From: Candidatus Hydrogenedentota bacterium
Lineage (GTDB): Bacteria; Hydrogenedentota; Hydrogenedentia; Hydrogenedentales; GCA-2746185
Direction: 5' to 3'
Assembly (NCBI GenBank): GCA_029937645.1
Contig: JAPYPO010000006.1
Span: forward strand, 1 to 32,843
DNA length: 32,843 bases
In this document: positions 3,898 through 32,835 of the stretch, piece by piece
Numbering within the stretch: position 1 is the stretch's first letter
Layout of the letters: each line of letters opens with the position of its first letter
The notes under the pieces: model-generated
Seen by the model: the letters and a program-made list of their open reading frames with translations, nothing else
Databases searched by the model: none
Told to the model about the DNA's origin: nothing
Position numbers and translations under genes: made by a program

Positions 3898-6216
3898 CTA
3901 GAACAGGCGAAACGATTGAATCAGATGGAGGCGCCCGCTTCCCTGGTCGTCGTCGGGGTTCAGCGGAATTCCGTAATCTAGCCTCAGCGGCCCCATCTTG
4001 GGGACGTTGAAACCGATACCAAGCCCAACGCTGTATTTGATTTCGCCCAGGTCAATGTCGCTGTCGGTCTTCCACACTCCGCCCGAATCGACGAAGCCGT
4101 AAAGGCGGACCATATCGGATGCGATGTACTTCACTTCAAAGCTGTTGAGCATTCGAACCTCGCCGCCGATGGCCTGCTTCTCACCGATCCAGATCAGACT
4201 GCGCACCTTGGGACCGATATCGCGGTTGTCGTATCCGCGAACCGTCGAGGTTCCGCCCGCGAAGAATCGGTCCGAGATAGATACGAGATCCTTGTCGCCG
4301 TAGGGGATCGCGTAACCCGTGCGGGTCCGCAGGGAAAGCACCCATTTTTGCTCTTTGCCCATGTTGCGGTACCAATTTGAGTCATGCTCGATCTTCACAA
4401 AATCGTTGTCCCCGCCAAATCCGGCCACTTCGATCTGGATGCCATGGGAGGATCCCGTCGTTGGGTCGCGCGAGTTGTCGATGGTATTTCTAGAAATGCC
4501 CCACGTGTTCGAAAAGGTTGTTCCCGGATTACGCAGCTCCCGAAGATCGGGGTGAAGGACGAGCCCAATATTGCTGATATCCACATCCGCGTAGCGGATG
4601 GATGTCCGCGCGTTCACATAGGGTGAAAGCGCTTTACCCAGGCGAAGCTGCGCGCCTTGCGTTTTCTGCGTGAAGTCCGACCCGCCCGAGGTCTCGACCG
4701 TCTCGTCGAAGAAGTCGAAGCCGAAGGCAAAAGGATAACCGGCGATCTCCGGATCCGTAAAGCTGATGTTATACGAGGTACTGAGTTCGCCCACGGAAAG
4801 ACGCATCGCGAATTGCTGGCCGCCCCCCGAGAACCGCGGCCAGTTCATAATGTCAAAGTTGTTCAGCCGGACCTCCGCAAATCCACCCAGGCCGGCATCC
4901 GTGCTGAATCCGCCCCCAAAATTGAAATTCCCGGTGCTGCCTTCCATCACGTCCATCTGGAGATCGGCCCACTGATCGCTCATCAGGTCGGTTGGCAGAA
5001 GCGACAGCCGTACATCTTCAAAGTAACCCGTCGATTCCACGCGGTTTTGGCTGGCGCGGTAGAGTGCGCCGTCGAAACGGTCGCCGGGGCTTAAGAGCAG
5101 CCGGCGGCGTACCACTTCGTCTTTGGTGACCGAGTTTCCGATGACCTTAATTTCGCGGATATACGCAAGGCCGCCCTCGGAGATATCGTGAACGACCTTA
5201 GTCGTCTTCGCTTGACGGTCTACGGTCACGACGGTATCCCTGATTTGCGCGCCCACATACCCCGAATCCTGATACCCTTCGCGAATCGCTGTCGCGTCCT
5301 CTTCCACCTGAGAGACGTTGTGAATATCGCCCGGCAGCACTTCGACAGAGCGGAGCAATTCGTCTTCATCGAACACGGTATTGCCGGCAAACTCCAGGGT
5401 GTCTACGCGGTACTCTTCGCCTTCCCGGACCGAAATGGTAATGTCCAGTTTTTTTCCGTTTGGACTGTAGGCGAAATCCGTTTCAAGCACTTCGGCTTCG
5501 AGGCGACCCGCATCGAAATATTCCTTTTGAATAATGACAATATCGTTCTCGAACTTGTCCTCGTTGTAGCGCCCGCCAAGGAACCACCTGCGCGGCTTCG
5601 ACTTGACGGCCTTGCGCAGCTTACGCGTGGTGAGGGCATCGTTACCCACAAAGCGGACCGAGCGAATGCGGGCTTTCCGCCCCTCTTCGATAAAATAAGT
5701 GACGCGAACACGCGAAGGGGAGACCTCTTCCACCACAATATCCACGGTGGCGTTCAGAAAGCCCTTGGAGAGGTACAGGCCGAGAAGGGCCTGACGCTCT
5801 TCCTCATAGCCTTCCTCTGCGAAGGGGGCGCCCTTTCGCCAATTCAACACGGCGCGCACCTCGCGCAGCTTAACCTTGCGGTTGCCGACAACGGTGACTT
5901 CGTCGATCTCGCGTTTCTCTTCAAAGATATAGAACAGGTCGATTTGGGTGCCGATTGTTTCGCGCTTGACACTGATGCGGACGAAATGCCCCAAGGCGTA
6001 AAGGCGGACGATGTCGCGACTGACGGCAGGGGGACTGAAGGGCTGCCCCGGCTGAACCTCAAGCTGCGATCGAATGAATTGCTCGCTGACACGTTCCTCC
6101 AACCCGGAAAACTCCACCGAACGCACAGTGAAGCTCTCTTGAATCTGACCGGATGAAACAGGAACGAACGCCAGCGCGACCGCTACCGCGGCCAAGCAAG
6201 TGGCGAGTAATCTCAA
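3898..6216 (-). CDS. bamA: Outer membrane protein assembly factor BamA (POTRA repeats + Omp85 barrel)
   Basis: Signal peptide, serial POTRA-like segments (RSVRFVGNDALTTRKLRKAV, DTLEFAGNTVFDEDELLRSVEVLPGD, REIKVIGNSVTKDEVVRRRLLLSPGD), barrel motifs VRGYDNRDIGP and GPLRLDYGIPL. TTG start overlaps the clpC stop (TTGA). Confidence 0.92.
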   Translation of the reverse strand: MRLLATCLAAVAVALAFVPVSSGQIQESFTVRSVEFSGLEERVSEQFIRSQLEVQPGQPFSPPAVSRDIVRLYALGHFVRISVKRETIGTQIDLFYIFEEKREIDEVTVVGNRKVKLREVRAVLNWRKGAPFAEEGYEEERQALLGLYLSKGFLNATVDIVVEEVSPSRVRVTYFIEEGRKARIRSVRFVGNDALTTRKLRKAVKSKPRRWFLGGRYNEDKFENDIVIIQKEYFDAGRLEAEVLETDFAYSPNGKKLDITISVREGEEYRVDTLEFAGNTVFDEDELLRSVEVLPGDIHNVSQVEEDATAIREGYQDSGYVGAQIRDTVVTVDRQAKTTKVVHDISEGGLAYIREIKVIGNSVTKDEVVRRRLLLSPGDRFDGALYRASQNRVESTGYFEDVRLSLLPTDLMSDQWADLQMDVMEGSTGNFNFGGGFSTDAGLGGFAEVRLNNFDIMNWPRFSGGGQQFAMRLSVGELSTSYNISFTDPEIAGYPFAFGFDFFDETVETSGGSDFTQKTQGAQLRLGKALSPYVNARTSIRYADVDISNIGLVLHPDLRELRNPGTTFSNTWGISRNTIDNSRDPTTGSSHGIQIEVAGFGGDNDFVKIEHDSNWYRNMGKEQKWVLSLRTRTGYAIPYGDKDLVSISDRFFAGGTSTVRGYDNRDIGPKVRSLIWIGEKQAIGGEVRMLNSFEVKYIASDMVRLYGFVDSGGVWKTDSDIDLGEIKYSVGLGIGFNVPKMGPLRLDYGIPLNPDDDQGSGRLHLIQSFRLF

Positions 6217-8675
6217 GTAGTCACACCTTCCGCTACGGGTATCGAAGGCTCGAAAGACAGGCGGTCCGCCCCTTCAGAGGCCTTCGCTTCAATAGTGGTC
6301 CCCGGTTCGAACGCGCCCTGAAGCAGCAACTCGGACAACGGATCTTCGATGAACTGTTGTACCGCCCGCCGCAACGGCCGCGCGCCGTATTCCTCGTCCG
6401 TACCCTTTTCGACGATAAACTTCTTCGCAGCGTCGCTCAAGGTAAAGTCGATCTCCTTTTCCTTGAGGCGTTTTACCACCTCTCCGACTTCAATGTCAAC
6501 GATCAGGCACAGTTCGTCGCGGGTCAGGCGGTGGAAAACGATCATTTCGTCAATTCGGTTCAAGAATTCTGGGTTGAAGACTTTCTTCGCCTCCTCCACC
6601 ACGCGATCCTTCATACGATTGTATAGGTCTTCTTCATCGTTCTTCTGGAAGCCCAGCGATACATTTTTCCCGATGCGGCGCGCGCCTACATTGCTGGTCA
6701 TCACGATCACCGTATTACGGAAATCAACCTTGCGGCCCGTCGAATCGGTCATGTGGCCTTCTTCGAGAATCTGCAAAAGCGTGTTGAATACATCCGGGTG
6801 CGCCTTTTCAATTTCATCGAACAGCACCACCGAATACGGCCGACGCCGCACTTGTTCCGTGAGCTGACCCCCTTCGTTGTAGCCCACATAGCCCGGAGGC
6901 GCGCCCGCGAGGCGGGACACCGCAAATTTTTCCATATACTCCGACATGTCGATGGTGATCAGCGCTTCCGCGTTTCCGAACAGGAACGTCGACAAAGATT
7001 TTGCCAGCAATGTTTTTCCAACGCCGGTAGGCCCAAGGAACAAGAACGAGCCCACGGGCCGATTCGCATTCTTGAGGCCGGCCCGGGAGCGCTGAATGGC
7101 GCGCGTGATCGCATCGACGGAAGCGTCTTGACCGATCACCGTGCCGTGCAACTCTTCGCGCATCCGCAAGAGCTTGACCGATTCGCGCTCTTCGAGTTTT
7201 GTGAGGGGAACCCCCGTCCACTTCGCCACGATATACGCGATATCTTCTTCCGTAACAATCGTCTCCGCGGAATCGCGCTTCTTTTCCCAGTCGCGCTTTC
7301 GATCCTCGAGCTTGGCGATGAGCGTGCGTTCGCTGTCCCGTAATTTCGCGGCCTTTTCATATTCCTGGCTGCGGATGGCTGCTTCCTTTTCCTGCGTAAC
7401 CGATTCGATCTCGTGCTCGATTTCCTTGAGGTCCGCCGGGCGCGTGGTAACTTGCAAGCGTGCGCGGCTTCCGGCCTCATCGATCACGTCCACCGCCTTG
7501 TCCGGAAGATAGCGGTCCATAATGTATTGATTGGAGAGTTTCGCGGCTTCCACAATAGCCTCATCCGAAAACTTTACCCGGTGATGCGCCTCATACTTGT
7601 CGCGCAAGCCCAGGATGATTTCGATCGTCTGCTCCACCGAGGGCGCCTCGACGATAATCGTCTGAAAGCGCCGCGCCAAAGCGGCATCCTTTTCGATGTG
7701 CTTGCGGTATTCGTCCATCGTCGTTGCGCCGATGCATTGCAATTCGCCGCGGGCCAGCGAGGGCTTGAGCATATTCGCCGCGTCTACCGCGCCTTCCGCA
7801 GCACCCGCGCCCACGATGGTGTGAAGCTCGTCGATAAAGAGAATGATATTGTCCGCGCGGCGAATTTCCTTCATGACGGATTTGAGCCGCTCCTCGAACT
7901 GGCCGCGATACTTCGTGCCGGCAACGACTCCGGCCAAATCCAACGTGAGTACGCGCCGACCCAGCAGAAGGTCCGGCACATCGCCCTCGATGATCGCTTG
8001 AGCGAGGCCTTCCACGATAGCCGTCTTGCCGACACCAGCCTCGCCGATCAGCACCGGGTTGTTCTTCGTGCGCCGACTCAGAATCTGGATGAGGCGCTCA
8101 ATTTCTCCCTCGCGTCCGATAACCGGATCCAGCTTATCCTCGCGCGCCAAAGCCGTGAGGTCGCGTCCGAAGGTGTCCAGGGCGGGCGTCTGCGATTTCT
8201 TGCCGGTCGAGGCTTGCTGCGGATTACCGCCGCGGCTCTGATCGCCTAGAAGGCGAATCACTTCCGCCTGGACCCGGCCCAGGTCAACCTTCATGTCCTG
8301 GAGAACCTTTGCCGCGATGCCCTCGCCTTCCTTGATGAGGCCGAGGAGAATATGCTCCGTACCGATGTAACTGTGGTTGAAGCGGCGCGCTTCCTCGACC
8401 GCCAACTCAAGGACTTTCTTCGCACGTGGCGTGAAAGCGATATCGTCGCCCGAAACCGTCGCCGTGCCGCGTTGACACTGCTGTTCGATTTCGAGGGCGA
8501 GAGCCTCGATATCAACGCCCAGGTGTCCGAGGGCCTTAGCGGCGATACCCTCCGGTTCTTGGCATAACCCCAAAAGGATATGCTCCGTCCGTACGTATTC
8601 GCTATTGAGGCGCGTGGCCTCCTCGCGGGCGGCGCTAACCACCTGCTTCGCGCGTTCAGTAAATCGTTCCCACAT
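6213..8675 (-). CDS. clpC: ATP-dependent Clp protease ATP-binding subunit ClpC
   Basis: [23 protein letters not shown]...TEHILLGL repeated N domain; two Walker A motifs ([29 protein letters not shown]); central UVR-like segment [22 protein letters not shown]-terminal D2 domain. Confidence 0.96.
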
Positions 8676-8701
8676 GGCAGATGAGTCCTCGTGCGTGTAA
8701 A

Positions 8702-9745
8702 TTAGGCGAAGCGGGCGCGAAAAAGATCGGCCCGTTCCGAGCTTAGGGTCAATTCATCGCAAGTTCGATTATGCCGCATTTCGATCTGCGCGCTGTGCGA
8801 GGCCATAAATACTTCGTTGATGGCGTGGATGGAGAATCCGTCAAGCAGCCCTTCGGAAACACCCATTCGCAGAGATGACAATACCGAAATCCCCTCTCCA
8901 AATTCAAGAAGCCGGGCTCCGCGGGCGACGCCCAGGGCGCGGCCCACACGGTCTTCCAGTTGCAAGGGGAGCTCCGTCCGGATGCGGGCGCGGGCCGAGC
9001 GTTCCCGGCTGACGATTTCGGTCGCCGCCATTTTTATTCGCAACACGATCTCCGATTCGGGGCGGCCCAGCGTACTGGGGTTGATGAGGCGGAACAAATC
9101 GGCCAATTCCTCCCCGTGCGGTCCTACCACAGGATTTAAGGCGAAGCGCTTATCGCGGAAATCCTCTATGACCTTCGCGAGTTCGCCCGTCATGGCCAAG
9201 CCCGGCAAATGGAGGAGCGCGCTGGCTCTGAGCCCCGTGCCAAGGTTCCGCACCGAGGTCGTCAGGTATCCGAGACGGTCGTTAAACGCGAAATCGATAT
9301 TGTCGGTCAGCTGATCATCCAGGGCGCTGACACGAGCCCATATTTCTTCAATCTGCACACCGGAAGCATGCGCCTGAATCTCAAGGTGATCCTCGCAGTT
9401 AATCGCGATGCTAAACGATTGGTCGTCCGCGATATAGACCCCGCGCGGGCCGTCGCCCTTCCACAGCCGATAGGGGATGAGCAGGCGTTCAAACAGAAAC
9501 TCCACCTCCCGATCATCCAGTTCAGCCATGCTGTAATAAATTCCCGTACGCGTTAGGTTCAACGCGTCCAAGACATCCAGAAGGCGTTTTTCGATTGTGG
9601 CCTTCTCCGTGTCGTCGCACTGAGCGGGAAAGGGAAACTCCTTCAGATTCCGCGTCAGGCGGCATTGCGAGAGGATGGCCGCGTCCGCATCCGGACCGGT
9701 CCCAGAAATCCATACCGCATCTCTATCCAGCAGCGTCTCAACCAT
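8702..9745 (-). CDS. mcsB: McsB-like ATP:guanido phosphotransferase family protein, possibly catalytically inactive
   Basis: CRLTRNLKEFPFP, FAFNDRLGYLTTSVRNLGTGLRASALLHLPGLAMT, NPSTLGRPESEIVLRIKMAATEIVSRERSAR; located between mcsA and clpC. Confidence 0.85.
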   Translation of the reverse strand: MVETLLDRDAVWISGTGPDADAAILSQCRLTRNLKEFPFPAQCDDTEKATIEKRLLDVLDALNLTRTGIYYSMAELDDREVEFLFERLLIPYRLWKGDGPRGVYIADDQSFSIAINCEDHLEIQAHASGVQIEEIWARVSALDDQLTDNIDFAFNDRLGYLTTSVRNLGTGLRASALLHLPGLAMTGELAKVIEDFRDKRFALNPVVGPHGEELADLFRLINPSTLGRPESEIVLRIKMAATEIVSRERSARARIRTELPLQLEDRVGRALGVARGARLLEFGEGISVLSSLRMGVSEGLLDGFSIHAINEVFMASHSAQIEMRHNRTCDELTLSSERADLFRARFA

Positions 9746-9747
9746 AC

Positions 9748-10263
9748 TTAATTGCCCTCGGCATTTCCTGAGTTTAACCCAGATTCCAGCAGCTGAATCG
9801 CATCGCGCAAGCCTGCGGCCGACTCATAATCTTCCATATCCAAGGCCGTCTTTAGCAGGCCCCGGCGTGTTTGCAGCTCCGCCCTGGCCACGGCCCGTTC
9901 GTCATCCATCTGCGGCGTCTTCCCGTGGTGGGTCAGGCCGTCATGGATACCTTCGAGCAACGACTCCAACTCCGCCGATACTTTGTCATAGCAGCGCGCA
10001 CATCCCACGCGGCCCGACTTAAGGATCGTCTGAAGCTCCGTTTCACAGGTGGGGCAGATTTCCATGGCGGTTGGCGCACTGGGCTTCGGCTTGCGCCCCG
10101 GCCGGATGAAGGGAGGAGGCTCGGACAGATCGAAACCGGTTTTTGCACTATCCTGCTGACTCTTCAAACAGTCATGGCACAGGTTCAAATCGTTCACCTG
10201 CCCATCCACCACTTCCGCGTAACGTACCGAGGCGAGGTTCTTATGGCACTTCTGACACAGCAT
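9748..10263 (-). CDS. mcsA: McsA-like zinc-finger protein with UVR motif (UvrB/UvrC motif-containing)
   Basis: MLCQKC...LCHDC...CPTC...CARC cysteine pairs and ARAELQTRRGLLKTALDMEDYESAAGLRDAIQLL UVR motif. ORF track start at 10506 includes an implausible N-terminal extension; the ATG at 10263 is preferred. Confidence 0.85.
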   Translation of the reverse strand: MLCQKCHKNLASVRYAEVVDGQVNDLNLCHDCLKSQQDSAKTGFDLSEPPPFIRPGRKPKPSAPTAMEICPTCETELQTILKSGRVGCARCYDKVSAELESLLEGIHDGLTHHGKTPQMDDERAVARAELQTRRGLLKTALDMEDYESAAGLRDAIQLLESGLNSGNAEGN

Positions 10264-10727
10264 AAAGGGACTCTCCGCAACGATTCCAAATCGATCAATA
10301 GGGATTATACCACCAGTCTTGAAAGCCAGTCTATCTAAGGAAGGGATTCGCGGCGGAAAATTCACCCTGCGCTCTCTTTTTGCTGAATATAATAAAAATA
10401 AGAAAAGTATTCGACATGGGCCAGAACCCTTGCAAACACGCTCAATAGTGGCGTCTTTCGAATCCACGTCGGCCCTGCTCCTGGGGTGAGGTTGGATCCC
10501 ACCCACAATTTTTTTCGCCCCTAAATTAATGCGACTCCCCCTCGAAACCTAATCGCATTAAGACGGTACCCGCCGCCGCAACGGGTCGTACCTTGTCGTG
10601 ATCGAGGCCCGTTTGTTGCGCGATGTCCGGCACGCACGTATACTTAGGCCCATACGCCACTACTCAGGCCCATGCGCCACGCGCAGGACGTTGCGTCCTT
10701 ATTTAACATACTAAGAAATTCAACGAT

Positions 10728-16009: not shown

Positions 16010-16104
16010 GTAATTCTATAAACCGATTCATTGCAAAGGTTTTAGAGAATTTGGCGCGGGGATTTCGCCCTTTGCGCCGTCGTTTTGTGCATGGGTGGAT
16101 TCGT

Positions 16105-17151
16105 ATGGTTGAGAGCGCGACACAATTAGGAGCGTTTGGACTACGTGAGCAGCCCTTTGCCCCCACGGCGGACCCTTCGTATTTTTATGCCTCCCCAGAC
16201 CACAAATCTTGCCTGCTTCGCCTGTGGGGCACGATTGACGAGCGGCATGGCATCGCAGTGGTTTTCGGGAATTACGGCACGGGCAAGACCACCCTGCTCC
16301 GCAAGTTGATGGTGGGTATGGCGGCGGACCCTGAGAAGTACAATACCGCCGTTGTTGGATCGCCTATCCCGTCCTGGACGAGTTTTGCGCTCTTCGAGTC
16401 GATCATCCATCAATTTGGATTGACGCCGGAAAATCGCTCGTTCGTTTCGTATATGGAGTGCTTGAACCAGTATCTTCTCGACAACCGCCACCGTGTGAGC
16501 ACGTTGATTATCGACGATGCCCAAAACTTAAATAAGCGGGGGCAATTGGAGTTGTTGCGGTTGGTGCAGAATCTTGAAACTCCCCAGCATAAACTCCTCA
16601 ATCTTATCCTCTTTGCTCAACTGGAGTGGACCCCGATTCTCCGGGCAGCGCCGAATTTCGCCCAGCGTATTAACATGACCTACACGCTCGAACCGCTCCA
16701 GCTCAATGAAGTGAGACGGTTTATCCAATTTCGAGTGGCCCATGCGCGTGGGGGAGTTGATGGCGCGTCCCTGTACGAAGATGACGCCATCGAGATGATC
16801 CACGCCTATGCCGAGGGAAATCCCAGGGTTATCGTGATGCTGTGCCGCAATGCGCTGCTGTTCGCCGCGCAAATCGGTAAGGAACGCGTAGATCAGGATA
16901 TCGTGCTCCATACCATCGAGAAGACCACCGTGCCGGACCCGGAACGGACGGCGCGTGCACGGGCCGCCGTAGCTGCAGATACGGCGATGAAGCCGCAGAT
17001 GCCAGCAGCAGCGGCCCCTGCGCCCGCGCCAGCGATGACGCCTGTGTCCATTGCGCCCGCTATAGCGGCAGCGCCGCGAAAGGCGCACTCGAATAATGAC
17101 GAGGCCAACCGCATGCTTTTGAACGCAGCGCGGGCCAAGCGAAAAGGGTAG
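16105..17151 (+). CDS. ExeA/GspA-like AAA ATPase (similar in kind to the ATPases of exosortase/EPS loci)
   Basis: FGLREQPFAPTADPSYFYASPDHKSCLLRL N-terminal signature, Walker A GNYGTGKTTLLRKL, Walker B STLIIDDAQNL, sensor LNLILFAQLEW; Ala/Pro-rich C-terminus. ORF track extends to a TTG at 16051. Confidence 0.85.
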   Translation: MVESATQLGAFGLREQPFAPTADPSYFYASPDHKSCLLRLWGTIDERHGIAVVFGNYGTGKTTLLRKLMVGMAADPEKYNTAVVGSPIPSWTSFALFESIIHQFGLTPENRSFVSYMECLNQYLLDNRHRVSTLIIDDAQNLNKRGQLELLRLVQNLETPQHKLLNLILFAQLEWTPILRAAPNFAQRINMTYTLEPLQLNEVRRFIQFRVAHARGGVDGASLYEDDAIEMIHAYAEGNPRVIVMLCRNALLFAAQIGKERVDQDIVLHTIEKTTVPDPERTARARAAVAADTAMKPQMPAAAAPAPAPAMTPVSIAPAIAAAPRKAHSNNDEANRMLLNAARAKRKG

Positions 17152-17232: not shown

Positions 17233-19251
17233 ATGGCAGAGTTAGACTCTATTCTCGACGAAAATCCGGACGATCTACAGGTCCGCTTCGACGACCTGGA
17301 AGGGGCGTTGATAGAGGGCGCTGAGGAGGACAGCCGACTGTCGAGCGGCACCCCGCATGAGACAGGCGATGTAGATCTCGATTTCATTCAAATGACCGGG
17401 CTCACGCGGCCCGCGCCCGAACCCGGCGTCGTCAAGGCGCTTCCTGCCCCGTTGGCGCCGGAAATGGATCCGGCCGCGCCCCTGAGTTTCTACGAAGAAG
17501 GGGTCGACGATGTTGATAGCACGCTCGCGCCGGAAGCCTTCGAGCACGGCGCAGCGCCGGAAGCAGACGTTATCGTAGTTCCACCCGCGATGGAAAGCGG
17601 CGCGGCCCAGAGTTTGAAAGACATCATTTCTGATTTAACCGGCGAGCCGCAGGAGATTACGGCGGAGGGTGAAGGTGCCATCGAGGCCGCGCCACCGACT
17701 ATCGAAGATATCCTGGGCTCTCCGGAAGATGCCATCGAGGCGCCACTCTTCATTGAAACACCTGAGCTGGTCGATCCGGGTAGTGATCTCGACGATGCGA
17801 ACGCTTCGCTCGAAGAAGCGAAGGAAGCAACTCCCGAGTCGCCACAGCCCGAGGCCATTACACCGGATCCCATGGTGGAGCCACGACCCGAGGTCGCTGA
17901 TCCCGAACCCTCATCCTTGGAGCCCGAGGCGCATGTAGAACCCGAGACGCTTGCAGAACCCGAGACGCTTGCAGAACCCGAGGCACCTGTAGAACCCGAA
18001 ACGCATGCAGAGCCCCAGGCGCTTGTAGAACCGGAGACACTTGTAGAACCGGCAACGCCCGCCCCGCAGCCCGCCGACCTGGAACTCACCGAGGCTCAAG
18101 ATTTAATGCAGGCTCTGGAAGCCCAGGAGCGCGATATTTCAGGGATTGATCGGGAGGATGTTGACGAAGCGCAGGAGTGGGATCTCGCGGAAAGTGATGA
18201 CGAGGAGGACGACAGCTCTGTCTACGATAAGCCGCTCAAAGCGGGAGCGCGGCGAGGGCGTCGCCAGAAAAAAAGTTTCATACGCACCCTTCGGGCTGTA
18301 TCGATTTTTGTGGCCATATCCGTGGTCGTGACTGCGGTCGTATTTTTGGGCTATCGCCAATTCACGCTCCGAGCCGAATCGCCGGAGGCAAGTTATAACC
18401 GGGCGGCATCGCTCCTGGCTCAAGGGCGCTACGCGGAGGCTTCGGACGAATTCGTTCGCTATCTACGGCGCGATCCGAATAGTTCCTTGCGTTCAGAGGC
18501 CCAGTTTCAGTCGGCCTACGCGTTGAGCCTGGTCCCAGAGTTTCCGGCGGATGCGGCGAAAATTTCGCATACCCGCGGTGTGGACCTGTTCAAGAAGTTT
18601 ATCGAAGACAATCCCAGCCATACAAAGCGCGCACGAGCGAAGACGTTGCTGGGTGTGCTTCTCTACCGGATCGAAAATTATGAAGAGGCCATATTGGTTC
18701 TAGAAAATCGGAGCCGGCGGCTAGTCGATCCGGATGCGTACCTGCCCTCGTTACGAGTTCTTGGGCGGGCTCACGCGCGCATGGGTCAGATCGAGCAGGC
18801 GCGATCCGCATTTCTTCGCGCGACCGATGTGGAAGGAAATTTCTCTCCCGATTCCGACTATCTCGAACTGGCGGCACTGTACCGCGGCCTTGCGTCGCAG
18901 ACCCGATCCACCGAGCAAAAACGCGCGTACCTCGTTCAGGCTGTCGCAATGTGGCAGGACGCACTTAACACGCCAGGCTTGCCCGATAGCCGAAAGAAAT
19001 ATATTCGGTTGCTTGTCGAAGCGGAAGCAGATGAGCAGAGGCTTGAACTCCCGGTAGAGGCCCCAGTAGAGACCCCAGTAGAGACCCCAGAAGAGACCCC
19101 AGAAGAGACCCCAGAAGAGACCCCAGAAGAGGCGGCTGATTCTTCGTGGGAGTCCAGTAATCCTCCGCCTGCTGCGTCGGTTTCAGACGATCCGGAAGTG
19201 GCGGTGACTCAACCGGTTGAACCCGAGAATGAATCGAATTCAGATGAATAG
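17233..19251 (+). CDS. Single-pass membrane protein with acidic Pro/Glu-rich cytosolic region and periplasmic TPR domain
   Basis: TM SFIRTLRAVSIFVAISVVVTAVVFLGY with preceding RRGRRQKK; TPR-like ASYNRAASLLAQGRYAEASDEFVRYLRRDP and RVLGRAHARMGQIEQARSAFLRA; repeat tracts. Confidence 0.75.
   Translation: MAELDSILDENPDDLQVRFDDLEGALIEGAEEDSRLSSGTPHETGDVDLDFIQMTGLTRPAPEPGVVKALPAPLAPEMDPAAPLSFYEEGVDDVDSTLAPEAFEHGAAPEADVIVVPPAMESGAAQSLKDIISDLTGEPQEITAEGEGAIEAAPPTIEDILGSPEDAIEAPLFIETPELVDPGSDLDDANASLEEAKEATPESPQPEAITPDPMVEPRPEVADPEPSSLEPEAHVEPETLAEPETLAEPEAPVEPETHAEPQALVEPETLVEPATPAPQPADLELTEAQDLMQALEAQERDISGIDREDVDEAQEWDLAESDDEEDDSSVYDKPLKAGARRGRRQKKSFIRTLRAVSIFVAISVVVTAVVFLGYRQFTLRAESPEASYNRAASLLAQGRYAEASDEFVRYLRRDPNSSLRSEAQFQSAYALSLVPEFPADAAKISHTRGVDLFKKFIEDNPSHTKRARAKTLLGVLLYRIENYEEAILVLENRSRRLVDPDAYLPSLRVLGRAHARMGQIEQARSAFLRATDVEGNFSPDSDYLELAALYRGLASQTRSTEQKRAYLVQAVAMWQDALNTPGLPDSRKKYIRLLVEAEADEQRLELPVEAPVETPVETPEETPEETPEETPEEAADSSWESSNPPPAASVSDDPEVAVTQPVEPENESNSDE
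17920..18063 (+). repeat. 18 bp x 8 in-frame tandem repeat (EPExxx units)
   Basis: EPEAHV EPETLA EPETLA EPEAPV EPETHA EPQALV EPETLV EPATPA; the two EPETLA units are nucleotide-identical. Confidence 0.9.
19053..19130 (+). repeat. 12 bp in-frame tandem repeat (VETP/EETP units)
   Basis: gtagaggcccca gtagagacccca x2 gaagagacccca x3 gaagag; encodes VEAPVETPVETPEETPEETPEETPEE. Confidence 0.9.
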
Positions 19252-19321: not shown

Positions 19322-20794
19322 ATGGGGAAAATTATTGTAGCACTGGCCATGGCCACCGTCTGCGCCGCGCAGCAAAATCCGCACGACACTATCCGCCCGG
19401 GCGATGTGCTCAGTGTCGAGGTGCCCGGTGCGCCCGAGTTGAGCCAGAACGTCCAGGTAGATACGGAGGGCAATATATTCTTTCCCGGCGTTCCCGGCGC
19501 AATTCGCTTGACCGATATGACGACGGGCGAGGCGGCAGCCCGGATGAACGCCACATTCCAGGCAATCGGGCTGCGGGATCCCGGCATTCAACTTCGGCGA
19601 AGCGGATCCCGCTTTCGAGCCCTCGACAACGGACGCACCGAAGCGATGGTGACCGAGATTATTCCGCTGCATAATTCGAACGCGAAAGAACTTTCCGCCA
19701 GCCTTCAGGGCATGAGCTCGCAGGGCGGCAATATAAACTACTATGAGGATTCGAATATTCTCATTGTTACGGACAACCCGGCGGCCATCCAGAGCATCGT
19801 CAACGCCGTGAACCGTCTCGATCAGATGCAAATGCAACTCACGCAGGTGCGCATCGAAGCAAAAGTGGCCGAGGTTCGCGTGGGCGCTCTCAAAGAATTA
19901 GGCATAAACTGGTTTGTTCAAGGGAACGAGGGCGTCGGCGGATTCAGTCCGCTAAACACCCAAGATCCCGCCCTCATCAACCTGCGTGGTGTGAACCCCG
20001 CTGAGGCCTTCAACACCGGTGCGGGAAATAATAATGGCGGGGGCAACACTTCCGGCGGAGGCGGAGGTTCGGGCGTTGGCTTTGTGGAGGAGGAATTCAA
20101 GAGCCGCCTCGCGGTGCCTATCCGCATTCCGCTTCCCGGCCAATCCTTCATCGGTTTTACAAACTCCCACGTCGATATCGGTGCCATGCTTGATGCCTTG
20201 GTCGTCGATAACAACGCCGCACTGCTGGCCAATCCCATGTTCATCGCGACGAATAATCGCGCCTCCGTCATCAAGATGGTGGACGAGATTCCCTACACGC
20301 AGTTCACCACGCAAATAACCGGCGCCACGGCCAGTACCGTCGAATTTATCGAGTTGGGCATTACGCTTGATGTGACCCCGCATATTTATCGGGACCGCGA
20401 GGGAGGCCCGTACGTCGAGCTCGACCTAAAAGCAGAAGTTTCCTTTCCTGTCGGTTCAGTCAATGGAGTGCCTATCCGCTCACTGCGAAGTCTGTCCAAC
20501 CGAGCCCATGTGCGCAACAACCAGACCCTGGTTATCGGTGGAATCTTGCGGGAGGACGAACGATCCATGGACTCAAAGGTGCCGGGTTTGGGTAATTTGC
20601 CCCTTTTGGGCCGACTGTTCAAGAAGGAAGAAAAGACGGACTTCCGCTCCGAACTCATGGTGTTTGTAACGCCAACCATTTACCGCCGGCCCGAAGACAT
20701 CACCTGGGACCGCATGATCGATATCTCGGAGAATTTGAGAGATAGGGAACTGATTCCCGAGGCCGCGATCCGCGGGGAAATGCGCAAGAATTAA
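19322..20794 (+). CDS. Hybrid outer-membrane channel: N-terminal polysaccharide export (PES/Wza-like) domain + secretin N domain + secretin domain
   Basis: DTIRPGDVLSVEVPGAPELSQNVQVDTEGNIFFPGVPGAIRLTDMTTGEAAARM (PES-like); IIPLHNSNAKELSASLQGM...ILIVTDNPAAIQSIVNAVNRLDQMQMQLTQVRIEAKVAEV (secretin_N); NQTLVIGGILREDERSMDSKVPGLGNLPLLGRLFKKEEKTDFRSELMVFVTPTI (secretin). ATG at 19322 gives a short signal peptide; ORF track starts at 19217. Confidence 0.85.
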   Translation: MGKIIVALAMATVCAAQQNPHDTIRPGDVLSVEVPGAPELSQNVQVDTEGNIFFPGVPGAIRLTDMTTGEAAARMNATFQAIGLRDPGIQLRRSGSRFRALDNGRTEAMVTEIIPLHNSNAKELSASLQGMSSQGGNINYYEDSNILIVTDNPAAIQSIVNAVNRLDQMQMQLTQVRIEAKVAEVRVGALKELGINWFVQGNEGVGGFSPLNTQDPALINLRGVNPAEAFNTGAGNNNGGGNTSGGGGGSGVGFVEEEFKSRLAVPIRIPLPGQSFIGFTNSHVDIGAMLDALVVDNNAALLANPMFIATNNRASVIKMVDEIPYTQFTTQITGATASTVEFIELGITLDVTPHIYRDREGGPYVELDLKAEVSFPVGSVNGVPIRSLRSLSNRAHVRNNQTLVIGGILREDERSMDSKVPGLGNLPLLGRLFKKEEKTDFRSELMVFVTPTIYRRPEDITWDRMIDISENLRDRELIPEAAIRGEMRKN

Positions 20795-20819: not shown

Positions 20820-23078
20820 GTGGCAAGCGATATTCCCTCTATAACACCCGGCGGAACGGAGCAAAATAACCAGCTTCGTTTCATCATCGACGTGCTCTTG
20901 CGCCACTGGGGAAAAGCACTCTTCGCCACCGCTCTCATGGGTCTGTTGGGCGGAGTGGCCGCCTCCTACACAAAGGTCGAGGAGCATACTTTCTTTGCGA
21001 CGACGGACCTTGTCATCAGAGCTTCTTTGTATGACAGCCCCGTTATGCAAGACCTCGGTGGGCCATCCTTCGACCACATGACGCCCGAAAACGTAGTGGG
21101 TCGCTATACGACAAGCGGAGTGCTGGCGGAAGAAATCGCGGTAGCGCTCGTCCAGCAGGACATCTCCGAAAGCCGCGGGCTCGCCAACCTCTCGACCCAA
21201 GACGAGATGCTAAGCCGTGCGCTGGATGTCGAGTCGCGCCTCACCTTTACGCCCTTCACCATAGAGAACAAGATCGAAATCACGGCCACAGGCGGCACCC
21301 ACGACGAGGCGGAACGCCTCGCCGACACCGCCGCACGCGTTCTAATTGACCAATCGAAACGGTCCATCGCGCGCGATCAGCAACGCACCTACGACGTGGT
21401 TCGCATCCGCATCGATGAGCTGCTGGCGGATGTGGGCGAAGCGGCGGAAATCCTGATGGGCTATCGTGAAGAGCCGGGCTTTATGACCCGCACGGAATGG
21501 ATGGACGAGCTGAGCGCGAATCGGGCCGAGTTGCGCGATAAGGAAGCCGCCAACGAAGAATTGGCCCGCGAGATCGATGCCATCGACCTGCAACTGGAGG
21601 AAAACCTGGACGAACTTCCGGGTAGCTTGGGCGACATCACGCAAAGCACCGTCAAACAAATGCAGAACGAATTGGAATCGACGCTGGTGGAAAAGGCCCG
21701 CCTCCAGACCCGTTGGAGCGAAGGCACGATTAACTCGCCCGTCAATCCCCTTGGCGCGAAGAACGAGGAAGTCGAGACCCACACACAAGCCATCCTCAAC
21801 GCAGTCGACCAGATGAATGCGAACGGCGGCACGGGAGGTCTGGATCAGCGTTTCGGCCTCTTGCACGAACGGGAAGCGATCCAGTTAAATTGGAAAAGCA
21901 ATGTGCGCCGGATTGGCACACTACGCACCCTCCTCGACGCGGAACGAAATCAGGATCCGGAGATGCTGGCGCTCAGCTTAGAGTTTGAAAAGTTGGAGCG
22001 CGAAACCGAGGAAAAGCAGTCGCAGATTTCCGACATGCTCTCGCGAGAGCTTCGGATTAAATTGGCTATGGATCAGCAAACGGCCACCTTGGCGCGGCGC
22101 GGTGCCGTGGTTGTCATCGACCAGCCGACGCGAAGCGGTCAATCGGCCACAGCGCTTACGCTCCTAGGCGGGCTAATCGGATTTGTCGCCGTCTTTGCCT
22201 ACGCCATGATGAGCGAAGGAATGAATACCTCGATTCGCCACGCCGATGATGTCACCAGCTATCTTGGCCTCGAGGTGCTGGGCACCATTCCTCAAATGCG
22301 ATTCACCCGGCGGGGACGGGGAAAGGGCAGGAAAGGCACCTACGTCATTTCCACGGGCGAGGAAGCGGTAGAGCGAAGCATCGTGACGCAATACGACCCG
22401 AAGTCGCCGGTTTCGGAAGCCTACCGCTCGCTCCGTACTAATTTTCAATTCGCCACCATTCAAGATAAACCGAAGACAGTCATGTTCACCAGCGCCGTGC
22501 CCGCAGAGGGCAAAACCACATCCGCCGTCAATTTTGCAGTGACGATGGCGGACCGCGGCCTCCGGGTATTGGTCGTCGATACGGACTTGCGCCGGCCCAA
22601 CGTTCACCGCTTCCTGAAAATGGAGCGGGGCCCAGGGCTGGCAGACGTGCTGCGCGAACGAATCCCCGTGAAGAACGTGATCCGATCGACGCGGGTGGAT
22701 CGGCTTTCCATCATCTCCAGCGGTCGCGTTCCTCCCAATCCGTCCGAGTTAATCGGCTCGGATCGGATGAAGAAGCTCATGGATGAGCTCGAAGGCATGT
22801 TCGACTTGGTCGTGTGCGACGCGCCGTCGCTGCATGTCGTAACCGACCCGGTTCTCCTCGCCACGCATGTAGACTCCGTGCTATTGGTCGTCTCGGTAAA
22901 TCACGCGCGGCGCGAGACCATCCTGCGCGCGAAGAAATTTCTCGTCACCGCGAATCCGCGCATCGCAGGGGTGGTGCTCAACGGACTGGAAGCGACGCGG
23001 CGGCATTATTATTACTACTACTATTACTACGACGACAAATCAAAACCGGCACGCCGCGGCTGGTTCGCCAATTCATAG
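20820..23078 (+). CDS. Wzc-like polysaccharide co-polymerase / bacterial tyrosine autokinase (Wzz + BY-kinase)
   Basis: Wzz-like N-terminus with two TMs and coiled coil; SPVSEAYRSLRTNFQFA, Walker A SAVPAEGKTTSAVNFA, Walker A' VLVVDTDLRRPNVHRFL, Walker B FDLVVCDAPS; C-terminal Tyr cluster. Confidence 0.92.
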   Translation: MASDIPSITPGGTEQNNQLRFIIDVLLRHWGKALFATALMGLLGGVAASYTKVEEHTFFATTDLVIRASLYDSPVMQDLGGPSFDHMTPENVVGRYTTSGVLAEEIAVALVQQDISESRGLANLSTQDEMLSRALDVESRLTFTPFTIENKIEITATGGTHDEAERLADTAARVLIDQSKRSIARDQQRTYDVVRIRIDELLADVGEAAEILMGYREEPGFMTRTEWMDELSANRAELRDKEAANEELAREIDAIDLQLEENLDELPGSLGDITQSTVKQMQNELESTLVEKARLQTRWSEGTINSPVNPLGAKNEEVETHTQAILNAVDQMNANGGTGGLDQRFGLLHEREAIQLNWKSNVRRIGTLRTLLDAERNQDPEMLALSLEFEKLERETEEKQSQISDMLSRELRIKLAMDQQTATLARRGAVVVIDQPTRSGQSATALTLLGGLIGFVAVFAYAMMSEGMNTSIRHADDVTSYLGLEVLGTIPQMRFTRRGRGKGRKGTYVISTGEEAVERSIVTQYDPKSPVSEAYRSLRTNFQFATIQDKPKTVMFTSAVPAEGKTTSAVNFAVTMADRGLRVLVVDTDLRRPNVHRFLKMERGPGLADVLRERIPVKNVIRSTRVDRLSIISSGRVPPNPSELIGSDRMKKLMDELEGMFDLVVCDAPSLHVVTDPVLLATHVDSVLLVVSVNHARRETILRAKKFLVTANPRIAGVVLNGLEATRRHYYYYYYYYDDKSKPARRGWFANS

Positions 23079-23229: not shown

Positions 23230-24738
23230 ATGGCATGGTGGGGTAGTTCGGAACGCGGAATCGGGCGTGGCGAAATCGCCGAGAGCCGGATCGAAGCCCC
23301 GTTTATCGCGGTCTTCGCGGTCCTCTGCGCGGTCATCCTCTTCGTTTTCCATTTCACCGTCCAAGAAACCAATTACTCCATTGCCATGGCCATCAGCATG
23401 CTCGTTTTCGGCCTGACACTGGTGCGTGTGGAAAACGGCATCTACATCCTGCTCGTCGCGATGCTCCTCTCTCCAGAAATCGAATCCGGCGCCGTGGGGG
23501 CCAGCAACGAGCGCGGTGTCAATCTGCGGTATGACGACGTCCTGATCATCGTCATTTTCCTGGGCGTCCTCGTGAAGAACGCCTTTGAAGGGCGCGTCAC
23601 CCCCTGGCGGACCAACCCCATAAATTCGGGCATCCTCGCCTACTACTTTGTGTGCGTTCTTGCCTCGTTGCGCGCGTGGTTTTTTGGGGCGCCCGCTTGG
23701 GATAAGTACGTCGCCTTCTTTGTCATGCTCAAGATGGCCGAGTTTTACATTGTCTTCTTCGTCGTCGGGCTTGCAATTAATAGCATGGCTGAAGTGCGCC
23801 ATCAACTCCGCGTGTTTATCGGCGTCGCCCTTGTCGTCAGCATCTACGGCATTGTGTCAATCCGAACGATCGAACGAGTGAGCGCACCCTTCGAAGTCGG
23901 CGGGACCGAGCCCAACACCCTCGGCGGCTATCTCATTATCGTGATTTGCCTCGCCCTTGGGCTCATGATCTACAGTCCCAAACGGCGGCAACGCCTGTTC
24001 TTGGGAGCCACCGCCGTCACCGCCTTCATCCCCTTTCTCATGACCCTGTCGCGCGCCTCCTACATTTCCCTCATCGCGGCCGTATTTGTCTTGGGGCTGA
24101 TGGCGCGAAAACCCTTTGTCATCATAATCATGCTAGTGGTTCTCGTCGCTTCCCCATTCCTGATGCCGCAGTCCGTGCGAGAACGCGTAGCCTATACATT
24201 CCGCGAATCGGACGGCCAAGTCGTGACGGTCGCGGGACGCGATACAGGGCTTCAGGTGGATACCTCGACCTACGAACGGATTTACGTCTGGAAAAAAGTT
24301 CAATTCAACCTGGGCGTGTGGCCCTACCTGGGCGGCGGCGTGTCGTGGGATACGGTGCTCGACAGCCAATACGCACGCTTGCTCATTGAAACAGGGTTAT
24401 TGGGCCTCTTCGCCTTCCTATTTATGCTCTACCGGATCCTGCGGACCGCGAGGCAAACGCAGCGATGGTCGAGGGATTGGGTTGGTCAGGGACTGGGGCT
24501 CGCGCTCATGGGTGTCTCTGCGGGGTTGATCGTCCATGGGTTCGGCACGATTTCATTCCTCATCGTGCGGATCATGGAACCGTTCTGGTTCCTCATGGCC
24601 CTCACCGTCGTGGCGAGGGACATGGCCATCCGCGATCACGCCCAACGGATGGCAGCACATCAGGCGGAACATCCATCGCCTTCCGAAGAAAAGAGTGGCG
24701 TCGGCAAACCTGTTACAGCGAGTGAGGCGCCAGCCTAA
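23230..24738 (+). CDS. O-antigen ligase / Wzy-like polymerase family polytopic membrane protein
   Basis: About 10-12 hydrophobic segments; TEPNTLGGYLIIVICLALGL, TLSRASYISLIAAVFVLGLM, PYLGGGVSWDTVLDSQYARLLIETGLLGLFAFLFMLYRIL. Confidence 0.8.
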   Translation: MAWWGSSERGIGRGEIAESRIEAPFIAVFAVLCAVILFVFHFTVQETNYSIAMAISMLVFGLTLVRVENGIYILLVAMLLSPEIESGAVGASNERGVNLRYDDVLIIVIFLGVLVKNAFEGRVTPWRTNPINSGILAYYFVCVLASLRAWFFGAPAWDKYVAFFVMLKMAEFYIVFFVVGLAINSMAEVRHQLRVFIGVALVVSIYGIVSIRTIERVSAPFEVGGTEPNTLGGYLIIVICLALGLMIYSPKRRQRLFLGATAVTAFIPFLMTLSRASYISLIAAVFVLGLMARKPFVIIIMLVVLVASPFLMPQSVRERVAYTFRESDGQVVTVAGRDTGLQVDTSTYERIYVWKKVQFNLGVWPYLGGGVSWDTVLDSQYARLLIETGLLGLFAFLFMLYRILRTARQTQRWSRDWVGQGLGLALMGVSAGLIVHGFGTISFLIVRIMEPFWFLMALTVVARDMAIRDHAQRMAAHQAEHPSPSEEKSGVGKPVTASEAPA

Positions 24739-27858: not shown

Positions 27859-28100
27859 TGTAGATTCGAATCAATGGTACCAGCTATTCGGACAAAATGT
27901 CCAATCATCGCTTCGAAGCCCATGCCCGACCGCCTCCATATACTTAAACGAACGGGCCGCTCCGTATGCCACAAAGGCCCGCACGCGGCCCGGTGGCGCT
28001 ACGGCGCGATCACTCTAGGCGGAGCGGGGTTTGCGCTCCCGGCCTTTTCCAGTTACTATCGTGCAAGAATCCATATACTACGGACCGTAGGAGGCAAGAA

Positions 28101-29204
28101 ATGGAAACCGCTGAAGCGAGTGCCCCGGGCACCGTGTCCATGCTAGATCTGATGCAACAGGCCCTCGATTTGAGAGCCTCCGATATCCATATCAAGACGG
28201 GAAACCCGCCCATTCTCCGAATTGACGGCACCCTGACCCGAATGGAAGGCGATCCTCTTACCGAAGAGGATGCCATGGGCATGCTCACGTCAATCTGCGC
28301 GGACTCGGATGTCGCGAAGTTTAAGAAGATCATGGAACTGGACAGCTCCTATGTCATGGAGGGCGTAGCGCGGTTTCGTGTAAACGCCTGTAAAGAAGAC
28401 GGCGACACCCGCATCGTCCTGCGCCTCATCCCCCTTAAAATTCTTACTGTCGAAGAACTCGACCTTCCGCCCGTGCTCAAAGATATCGTCGCCGGCAAGA
28501 ACGGGCTGATTCTCGTAACCGGCCCCACGGGTAGCGGCAAATCTACCACCCTCGCCGCGATGATCAATCACGTCAACGAGAACCGCCCCGAACACATCAT
28601 CACCGTCGAGGACCCGCTCGAATTCGTTCACGCCGACAAAGAATCTATTATTACCCAGCGCGAAGTGGGGCACGACACCTTGTCCTTCGCAAACGCCTTA
28701 CGCGGCGCGCTGCGGCAAGACCCGGATATTATTCTTATTGGCGAAATGCGTGACGCCGAAACAGTCCGGACGGCCATGGCCTCGGCGGAAACCGGTCACC
28801 TCGTTTTTTCCACACTGCACACCGTGGATGCCGTCGAAACCATCCACCGTATTATCGATTTCTTCGAACCCCACCAGCAGGTCCAGATCCGAAAGCAGCT
28901 CGGCAGCGTGATACGCGCGATCGTCTCCCAGCGTATTTGCCCGCTGAAAGACGGCGAAGGCCGTTGCGCCGCGTGCGAAATACTCATCGGAACCCGGGCC
29001 GTCCGCGATTTCATCGAAGTGGGCAAGGGGCTCAAAGACATTGCCCGTCTCATCGAGGGCGGCTACGACCAATACCGGATGCAAACCTTCGACCAAGCCC
29101 TGTTCGACCTATACAAATCGGGCAAAATAACGCCACAGATAGCCCTCCAATTCGCATCTAGCGCCAAAGATCTCAAGCTCCGCATTCAGGGCATGGGAAA
29201 ATAG
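28101..29204 (+). CDS. pilT: Type IV pilus twitching motility ATPase PilT
   Basis: DLRASDIHIKTGNPPILRIDG, Walker A GPTGSGKSTTLAAMI, EDPLEFVH, QREVGHDT, LRQDPDIILIGEMRDAETV, ETGHLVFSTLHT; RBS ggagg before ATG at 28101 (ORF track start 27966). Confidence 0.94.
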   Translation: METAEASAPGTVSMLDLMQQALDLRASDIHIKTGNPPILRIDGTLTRMEGDPLTEEDAMGMLTSICADSDVAKFKKIMELDSSYVMEGVARFRVNACKEDGDTRIVLRLIPLKILTVEELDLPPVLKDIVAGKNGLILVTGPTGSGKSTTLAAMINHVNENRPEHIITVEDPLEFVHADKESIITQREVGHDTLSFANALRGALRQDPDIILIGEMRDAETVRTAMASAETGHLVFSTLHTVDAVETIHRIIDFFEPHQQVQIRKQLGSVIRAIVSQRICPLKDGEGRCAACEILIGTRAVRDFIEVGKGLKDIARLIEGGYDQYRMQTFDQALFDLYKSGKITPQIALQFASSAKDLKLRIQGMGK

Positions 29205-30705: not shown

Positions 30706-32835
30706 ATGAGAAGTATCACGAATCGATTCGGGCTCATGGCTGCCGTCGCCGCAATCTTCGTAGGATCCGCCGACGCCGCCACGGTGCAGGTGCAGGTCGT
30801 CAGCAACGAATTTATTCCGTCAGACGTCACCATCAACGTGGGCGATACCGTCGAGTGGACCTGGGGCTCAGGCTCTCACACCGTCACCAGCGGGACTGGC
30901 TCCTCGGACGGTGCAAGTGGCAACTTGTTCAACGAACCAAGCACGCCATCTTCGCAAACGTTTTCCTTTACCTTCACACAAGCCGGTCTCGTGCCGTATT
31001 ACTGTATCCCGCATGAATCTTTCAACATGAAAGGCTCTGTGAACGTGGTCGCCGGTGGCGGCGAGGGCGAAGCGCCCGTCACGGTGACCGTACAGGTTTC
31101 CGATAGCGGATTCGACCCGGCCGAAATCACCATCAACGTGGGCGATACCGTCCGATGGAATCTGGTCGGCGGTTCCCATTCCGTCGCCAACGGCACGGAC
31201 TCGTCCGACCCGAATAGCAGCACATTATTTGACGCGTCCCTTCACGGAGAGTTCTTGCCATCGTTCTCCTATACCTTCACGCAAGTCGGGCTCGTGCCCT
31301 ATTACAGCGCCCCCGACGAGGCCGGTGGCGGCATGACGGGCTCCGTGAACGTACTCGCGGGTGGCGGAGAAGGTGAAGGAGAAGGTGAAGGTGAGGGCGA
31401 AGGAGAGGGCGAAGCGCCCGTCACGGTGACCGTACAGGTTTCCGATAGCGGATTCGACCCGGCCGAAATCACCATCAACGTGGGCGATACCGTCCGATGG
31501 AATCTGGTCGGCGGTTCCCATTCCGTCGCCAACGGCACGGACTCGTCCGACCCGAATAGCAGCACATTATTTGACGCGTCCCTTCACGGAGAGTTCTTGC
31601 CATCGTTCTCCTATACCTTCACGCAAGTCGGGCTCGTGCCCTATTACAGCGCCCCCGACGAGGCCGGTGGCGGCATGACGGGCACCGTGAACGTACTGGG
31701 TGGCGCGCCCAACACCACGATTCTCAATGTTAGCCCAGGTAGCGTGAACGTCGCATCAACCGCAGGATCCTTTCAAGTTGGTGTGGAATACACCACAGTT
31801 GGGAATATTGGATGGCGGGCCGAAGTAGTCGCGGGTCAAAGCTGGTTATCCTTAGACGCTGCGTCAGCGATATATAGGGCGTACAACGGGTCGATTTTTG
31901 CCACGCACCAAACGAATGGCCAATTGCTTGAGCGCATTGGGATAATTCGTATCAATGCTCCCGGCGCGGCTAATGACCCTACAGAAATCACTGTAACGCA
32001 GGCTGCGATGCTACCGCCGATGGCAATAATCAACGTCTCCCCAAGTCAAATTGATTTCGGTGAGACGCGCATCGGTTCTACTTTGAGCGCGACTGTAACG
32101 ATCGGAAATGATGGCGATGCGACTCTGGACGGCGTCGCATCGACCTCGTCACCGTTCAGCATCGTCGGCAGCGCTTCCTACTCCATTGCGCCCGGCCAGT
32201 CCCAGCAAATTACCGTAGGATTTACTCCCACTGCCGCGGGCGCCGCCACAGGGTCTGTTTTGTTTACCGGAGGAGGCGAAGCCACGGTGGGAGTGAGCGG
32301 TGAAGGTGCCCCCCCGGTGGCGGTGATCATGGTGTCGAGGAATACCATCACATTCGGCGAGGTCGTCATAGATTCTCAAGAAACCAACGCGGTGATGGTC
32401 AGCAATACCGGCGATGCGGTTCTCGAAGGCGTCGCCTCGGCGTCGCCCCCATTCAGCATCGTTTCCGGCGGCTCCTACTCGCTCGCCCCGGGCCGCTCCC
32501 AAGCGATCACCGTAGGGTTCACACCCGACGCAACGGGCACCTCCCAGGGCTCTGTTACCTTAACCGGAGGAGGCGGAGCCACGGTAGGAGTGACGGGCAT
32601 CGGAATCTTGTCCGCCCAAATAATGACCGCGGAAACCTCCATTGACTTCGGCGATGTAAACCTAGGCAATCATACGACCCGAAGCGCCACGCTCACGAAT
32701 GTTGGAGGCGTCCCTCTTGAAGGCGAGGCATCAGCAACGGAGCCGTTTAGCGTAGCCGCCCGGGCATTCTACCGTCTGCATCCGGGCGAGTCACATGAAG
32801 TCTTCCTGCGATTCACACCGGTCTCGAAAGGATAG
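30706..32835 (+). CDS. Secreted protein with three cupredoxin-like domains, a BACON-like domain and choice-of-anchor-D/Hydin-like repeats
   Basis: Signal peptide; cupredoxin pattern INVGDTVEWTWGSGSHTV...YYCIPHESFNMKGSVNV, then two near-identical copies; NVSPGSVNVASTAGSFQVGVEYTTVGNIGWRAEV...SWLSL (BACON); repeats of IDFGETRIGSTLSATVTIGNDGDATLDGVAS...FTPTAAGAATGSVLFTGGGEATVGVSG. Confidence 0.8.
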   Translation: MRSITNRFGLMAAVAAIFVGSADAATVQVQVVSNEFIPSDVTINVGDTVEWTWGSGSHTVTSGTGSSDGASGNLFNEPSTPSSQTFSFTFTQAGLVPYYCIPHESFNMKGSVNVVAGGGEGEAPVTVTVQVSDSGFDPAEITINVGDTVRWNLVGGSHSVANGTDSSDPNSSTLFDASLHGEFLPSFSYTFTQVGLVPYYSAPDEAGGGMTGSVNVLAGGGEGEGEGEGEGEGEGEAPVTVTVQVSDSGFDPAEITINVGDTVRWNLVGGSHSVANGTDSSDPNSSTLFDASLHGEFLPSFSYTFTQVGLVPYYSAPDEAGGGMTGTVNVLGGAPNTTILNVSPGSVNVASTAGSFQVGVEYTTVGNIGWRAEVVAGQSWLSLDAASAIYRAYNGSIFATHQTNGQLLERIGIIRINAPGAANDPTEITVTQAAMLPPMAIINVSPSQIDFGETRIGSTLSATVTIGNDGDATLDGVASTSSPFSIVGSASYSIAPGQSQQITVGFTPTAAGAATGSVLFTGGGEATVGVSGEGAPPVAVIMVSRNTITFGEVVIDSQETNAVMVSNTGDAVLEGVASASPPFSIVSGGSYSLAPGRSQAITVGFTPDATGTSQGSVTLTGGGGATVGVTGIGILSAQIMTAETSIDFGDVNLGNHTTRSATLTNVGGVPLEGEASATEPFSVAARAFYRLHPGESHEVFLRFTPVSKG
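31063..31683 (+). repeat. Perfect 279 bp direct duplication inside the cupredoxin gene (offset 342 bp)
   Basis: 31063-31341 is identical by eye to 31405-31683; a single mismatch (t31342/a31684) then a further 13 bp match. Confidence 0.9.
31366..31412 (+). repeat. Gly-Glu coding hexanucleotide microsatellite linker
   Basis: ggagaaggtgaaggagaaggtgaaggtgagggcgaaggagagggcgaa, encoding GEGEGEGEGEGEGEGE. Confidence 0.85.

Follow-up and report, generated by a model that had tools for sequence, protein, structure and literature searches.

What passes through a secretin that begins with the periplasmic domain of a polysaccharide exporter and is encoded beside a Wzc-like kinase? This question is raised by a gene on contig JAPYPO010000006.1 of the Candidatus Hydrogenedentota assembly GCA_029937645.1. 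The window analysed here is this whole contig (C153) of 32,843 nucleotides; the genome comprises 822 contigs with 4.8 Mb in total and has a listed completeness of 99.8%. The gene occupies 19322..20794 on the + strand (from the ATG at 19322 to the last base of the stop codon at 20794, with GGAG ~9 bases 5' of the start codon) and encodes 490 amino acids. An initial annotation had described the product as a polysaccharide-export (PES) domain fused to a secretin and standing in the place of Wza. This was right and holds across the phylum: 28 of the 68 Hydrogenedentota genomes encode the protein, either complete or as fragments at contig ends. We refer to it as the PES-secretin.

The domain architecture is real and conserved. 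Behind a signal peptide of about residues 1-16, Pfam recognised Poly_export (PF02563; residues 17-89), a Secretin_N or N1-like domain (residues 111-172) and the Secretin beta-barrel domain (PF00263; residues 293-454), with 48.1, 48.5 and 133.2 bits against cut-offs of 28, 28.2 and 27.5, respectively. A Gly-rich loop covers about residues 208-262, the motif VPxLGxxPxxGxLF is present as in the GspD and PilQ secretins, and the C-terminal tail closes with a conserved E-x-R-K/R-D/E/N motif. Each of the 11 full-length family members scanned has all three domains and none has an SLBB domain by Pfam; Secretin_N comes after the PES domain instead. The C-terminus is the Secretin domain, and neither the Wza_C helix nor the GfcC domain of classes 1 and 2 of the outer-membrane polysaccharide export (OPX) proteins was found there. 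On inspection, the orthologs begin with what resembles a Sec-type signal peptide and not a lipoprotein signal. The initial annotation had allowed for an ordinary N0/STN-like N-terminus. Pfam gave no STN or N0 match in the window protein or its orthologs, and the PES domain stands where ordinary secretins have N0/STN. An assembly chimera was rejected as the source of the fusion because it recurs on independent contigs of 28 genomes. The secretin matches to GspD, PilQ and SctC in NCBIfam each stay below the family cut-off, and a weak EpsE match lies at the N-terminus.

Structural comparisons point in the same direction. A profile built from 14 PES domains of the family and searched against the PDB matched WzaB of M. 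xanthus (1.5e-10) and Wza of E. coli (about 1e-8), as well as other Wza structures; PslD matched weakly and the candidates after it were insignificant. The AlphaFold monomer model of the PES-secretin has a modest mean pLDDT of 64.7; most values for PES, N1 and the barrel are between 70 and 86. With this model Foldseek found GspD, ExeD and PilQ as best matches over most of the length (E about 1e-16), and its N-terminal part was superimposed on WzaB (9n9a) over 72 columns with a root-mean-square deviation of 1.1 A (E 3e-3). Both halves of the protein were therefore assigned correctly by the initial annotation, the N-terminus to the Wza/PES type and the remainder to Secretin_N plus Secretin.

A doubt could arise from the window copy itself, in which Gly replaces a near-invariant Arg of the PES domain (position 36) and which sits on a long branch in the PES tree. 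If such divergence meant loss of function, the domain would be a relic or an unrelated look-alike of N0. For the family as a whole this is refuted, and we regard it as very improbable: Poly_export lies above the Pfam cut-off in all members scanned and reaches 74.8 bits among the genome matches, and the predicted fold agrees with WzaB as described above. Moreover, the mean pairwise identity among the orthologs, leaving out the window copy, is 54% for PES, 55% for N1 and 62% for the Secretin domain, so that PES is under about the same constraint as N1.

The gene directly downstream (20820..23078, + strand) was annotated as a Wzc-like bacterial tyrosine kinase (BY-kinase), and it is a true full-length BY-kinase and polysaccharide co-polymerase of the Wzc type. 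It exceeds the cut-off of TIGR01007 by 179 bits, contains Walker A, A' and B motifs and has a long helical periplasmic arm between two transmembrane helices. Its C-terminal tail reads HYYYYYYYYDD with eight tyrosines, and most orthologs also have a tyrosine ending. The kinase profile matched Wzc (residues 359-749) and PslE (125-493) in the PDB, and the predicted model (pLDDT 75.4) matched full-length Wzc with an E-value of 5.7e-26. The locus has the Wzc partner expected of a Wzx/Wzy pathway.

Three further genes complete the operon. An AAA ATPase related to the TIGR03015 ATPase family of XrtA/PEP-CTERM systems (16051..17151, + strand; orthologs from the genome search 54-67% identical) is followed by a bitopic inner-membrane protein with tetratricopeptide repeats (TPR; 17233..19251, + strand), whose position in the operon is conserved. 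By inspection, the TPR protein has an acidic cytoplasmic N-terminus, a transmembrane segment at about 352-374 and periplasmic TPRs. Downstream of the kinase lies a polytopic membrane protein of the Wzy_C family, of the polymerase or O-antigen ligase type (23230..24738, + strand), with orthologs that are mostly 49-60% identical. The order AAA ATPase, TPR protein, PES-secretin, BY-kinase and Wzy_C protein, all on the + strand with gaps of about 25-150 bases, is kept in all related loci whose contig reads through.

The named relatives with related loci are metagenome-assembled genomes of Candidatus Hydrogenedentota. These loci were found with an alignment as query, while a single sequence gave none; the genome scan used two peptide patterns, so that distant occurrences elsewhere could escape it. 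The Wzy_C ortholog is present in exactly the same 28 of the 68 genomes as the PES-secretin. If the genomes were independent, the chance of identical sets would be about 1e-19, a value that is far too optimistic given their relatedness. Nevertheless, the match does not merely reflect the shared ancestry of one block, because families f1, f4, f9 and f11 as well as genus g44 are mixed for presence. The AAA gene occurs in 38 of these genomes. Those with the AAA gene and no PES-secretin carry it, often with a TPR gene, without the triad of PES-secretin, kinase and Wzy_C, so the AAA-TPR pair has a life of its own. In genome G013 (L144:6599-10801) an intact AAA-TPR pair leads straight into a PilT-like gene and the triad is cleanly absent, as in an empty site. 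Since this genome has the pair and lacks exactly the triad, the three genes behave as a unit.

The fusion appears to have a single origin. A tree of 40 PES domains, based on few columns, sets the 18 fusion domains apart from those of 21 conventional OPX proteins of Hydrogenedentota (support 99/98), which indicates one clade. Among 33 secretins used for comparison, 32 from other phyla and one ortholog (L060), STN was found in 26 and N0 in 24; by Pfam, PES occurred in L060 only and in 0 of the 32. Several apparent occurrences elsewhere were rejected. The contig of L060 (JAACEL010000017.1), labelled Nitrospiraceae, coincides with G053 of the same order as the window, and that of L070 (VFKU01000360.1), labelled Rhodothermaeota, coincides with G005 of the same family; both names look wrong. 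Matches from Zixibacteria, Elusimicrobia and Omnitrophota that reach towards the N-terminus (L079, L082, L099, L103) have no PES by Pfam or by the family PES profile. Similarly, the N-terminus of the sole match in the set around a Phycisphaerales locus (L157) resembles N0/STN on visual inspection, and among the three scored candidates listed for each of 392 genomes of that locus's phylum no PES-secretin was found.

The genome also encodes other exporters and secretins. A conventional OPX protein (EpsE/Wza) with SLBB domains is located on contig C482 (L051) in an exosortase locus of the XrtA type, together with a sigma-54 activator, a tyrosine kinase, a PrsT-like TPR protein and an exosortase. 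In addition, nine secretin matches were found in the genome, and at least two contigs, C307 and C622, each carry a T2SSF platform protein with its own secretin, as in type II secretion systems (T2SS) and type IV pili (T4P). This genome therefore has a further OPX protein and further secretins besides the PES-secretin. A conventional Wza in the same pathway, together with a full T2SS or T4P operon using this secretin, had been named as an outcome that would speak against the initial annotation. The Wza-like protein that was found belongs to the separate exosortase locus, and the T2SSF matches lie on other contigs; T2SSF/PilC and pilin genes were not recognised beside the PES-secretin. As a side observation, contig C456 encodes a protein of ~117 amino acids with one transmembrane segment and a PES domain on its own, without SLBB (L050:9494-9850, - strand), adjoining serB and outside any exopolysaccharide (EPS) locus.

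These findings bear on whether the PES-secretin could be a protein or pilus secretin of the T2SS/T4P kind, in which PES would merely dock it to a regulatory BY-kinase and the cargo would be protein. The barrel is indeed that of an ordinary secretin, and seven PES-secretin loci have the gene of a PilT-like ATPase as their direct convergent neighbour; in the window it lies at 27966-29204, ~3 kb downstream of the Wzy_C gene. However, this gene remains in the triad-less locus L144 and is not tied to the triad. The operon and the neighbours that were scanned yielded no member of the GspC/F/G, PilM-P or pilin families, and the families identified at the PES-secretin loci include no recognisable platform protein, pilin or pseudopilin. 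The contigs with T2SSF platform proteins carry their own secretins, and the obligate partner of the PES-secretin is a Wzy_C protein. We consider a protein or pilus cargo unlikely. PADLOC reported nothing relevant. The PilT-like proteins also exist in versions of ~500 amino acids (e.g. L039:14211-15737) with an extra N-terminal region that has no Pfam match.

The nature of the Wzy_C partner leads to another explanation. The Wzy_C family takes in ligases of the WaaL and PglL type, and the protein could be a ligase or O-oligosaccharyltransferase, in which case the secretin would pass not free polysaccharide but a lipid-linked glycan or a glycosylated protein. The locus has no glycosyltransferases, as though the glycan came from elsewhere. 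On the other hand, the kinase has the full periplasmic arm of a co-polymerase and the tyrosine tail, as in the control of polymer chain length, and among the conserved operon genes there is none for a candidate acceptor protein. Such a route for a surface glycoconjugate seems to us improbable.

We consider it probable that the PES-secretin combines OPX domain and beta-barrel in one polypeptide and acts as the translocon of a Wzy-type polysaccharide, the PES domain docking on the kinase. The secretin part would form a multimeric beta-barrel in the outer membrane, and the OPX D1 (PES) domain, in place of N0, would be its periplasmic entrance. The PES ring would dock on the periplasmic arm of the neighbouring kinase by analogy with D1 of Wza on Wzc, and the secretin pore would be the exit for a polymer synthesised with the help of the Wzy_C protein. 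In E. coli, Wza and Wzc form a continuous channel, and deletion of the Wza D1 domain abolishes the pattern of their co-localisation (PMC12881504). Here D1 belongs to a secretin whose gene adjoins that of a Wzc, which suggests a like mode of docking for another type of pore. The AAA and TPR proteins may aid assembly or regulation, although both also occur without the triad. One might speculate on a role like that of the Aeromonas ExeAB complex, which helps to assemble a secretin via its N0-N1 domains (PMC4098917), with the same reservation that the pair also occurs alone. EPS of a Sphingomonas locus depends on an AAA+ ATPase gene (PMC11340318), which does not imply family kinship to the AAA ATPase of the window.

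Several observations weigh against polysaccharide export. Secretins of known stoichiometry have 12-15 subunits and Wzc is an octamer, so that the symmetries may not match. The SLBB domain missing here is common to all three described OPX classes (PMC9603273). The Wzy_C match (2.4e-06) is below the Pfam gathering score, and polymerase and ligase are indistinguishable. No glycosyltransferase, Wzx or sugar-nucleotide genes were recognised in the operon, the window or the neighbours identified at related loci; the two Wzx-type (Polysacc_synt) matches of the genome lie on other contigs, C480 and C224. Besides, the PilT-like ATPase adjoins the operon in several loci, and the window PES domain (window:19370-19600) is unusually diverged, with 33% identity to the orthologs compared to 54% among them; the secretin part is less diverged.

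Comparison with known systems helps to place the proposed translocon. Like Wza, the class 1 OPX protein of the E. coli group 1 capsule (PDB 2J58), which works with Wzc, the PES-secretin has a PES (D1) domain, a gene beside that of a Wzc-type BY-kinase and, presumably, D1-kinase docking; unlike Wza, it lacks SLBB, its beta-barrel is that of a secretin and its signal peptide is of the Sec type. The composite OPX/beta-barrel translocons, in which short OPX proteins (EpsY, WzaB, VpsN) work with separate barrels (PMC9601211), also combine a periplasmic PES module with an outer-membrane barrel, and the PES fold is closest to that of WzaB. However, they consist of two proteins, a short D1D2 OPX protein and a monomeric barrel of 18 strands, whereas the PES-secretin is one polypeptide of a normally multimeric pore. 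It shares the Secretin_N (N1) and Secretin domains with GspD and PilQ of T2SS and T4P, but has PES for N0/STN, BY-kinase and Wzy_C operon partners and no T2SS/T4P platform genes recognised nearby. The gene set resembles that of XrtA/PEP-CTERM exopolysaccharide loci (EpsE, tyrosine kinase, PrsT, AAA ATPase) in its TIGR03015 ATPase, TPR protein, tyrosine kinase and O-antigen-ligase-like protein. In contrast to these loci, it contains no exosortase, the PES-secretin replaces EpsE, and the ordinary XrtA-type locus is separate on C482.

Wzy-type polysaccharide is known to cross the outer membrane through the alpha-helical octamer of Wza or through the two-protein combination of a short OPX protein with a monomeric barrel. 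No paper on a PES-secretin fusion turned up among titles, abstracts and in-text finds, and two large OPX surveys of 2022 make no mention of secretins in their main text. The architecture is not described in these surveys, and there is a good case for a putative secretin-based polysaccharide exporter. A secretin docked to a Wzc-type kinase via PES and serving as the outer-membrane channel may well represent an OPX class that has not been described before. If this is true, it adds a further architecture for the exit of polysaccharide and extends the cargo range of secretins beyond proteins, pili, phage and DNA. Moreover, with the PES domain moved onto an unrelated pore, the vague question of its purpose becomes testable.

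At L033:3781-5607 and about ten related loci, a divergent FHA-GAF-HD-GYP gene adjoins the AAA gene upstream, which suggests control linked to cyclic di-GMP; in the window this gene is not adjacent to the AAA gene. Elsewhere in the window, genes for ClpC, an McsB-like arginine kinase and a 252-aa protein with no Pfam match lie in a row at 6213-10506 (- strand), resembling the McsA-McsB-ClpC protein-arginine phosphorylation module of Firmicutes, here in a diderm. Finally, a 709-aa protein encoded at 30706-32835 combines cupredoxin domains with Ig domains of the HYDIN/ASH type.
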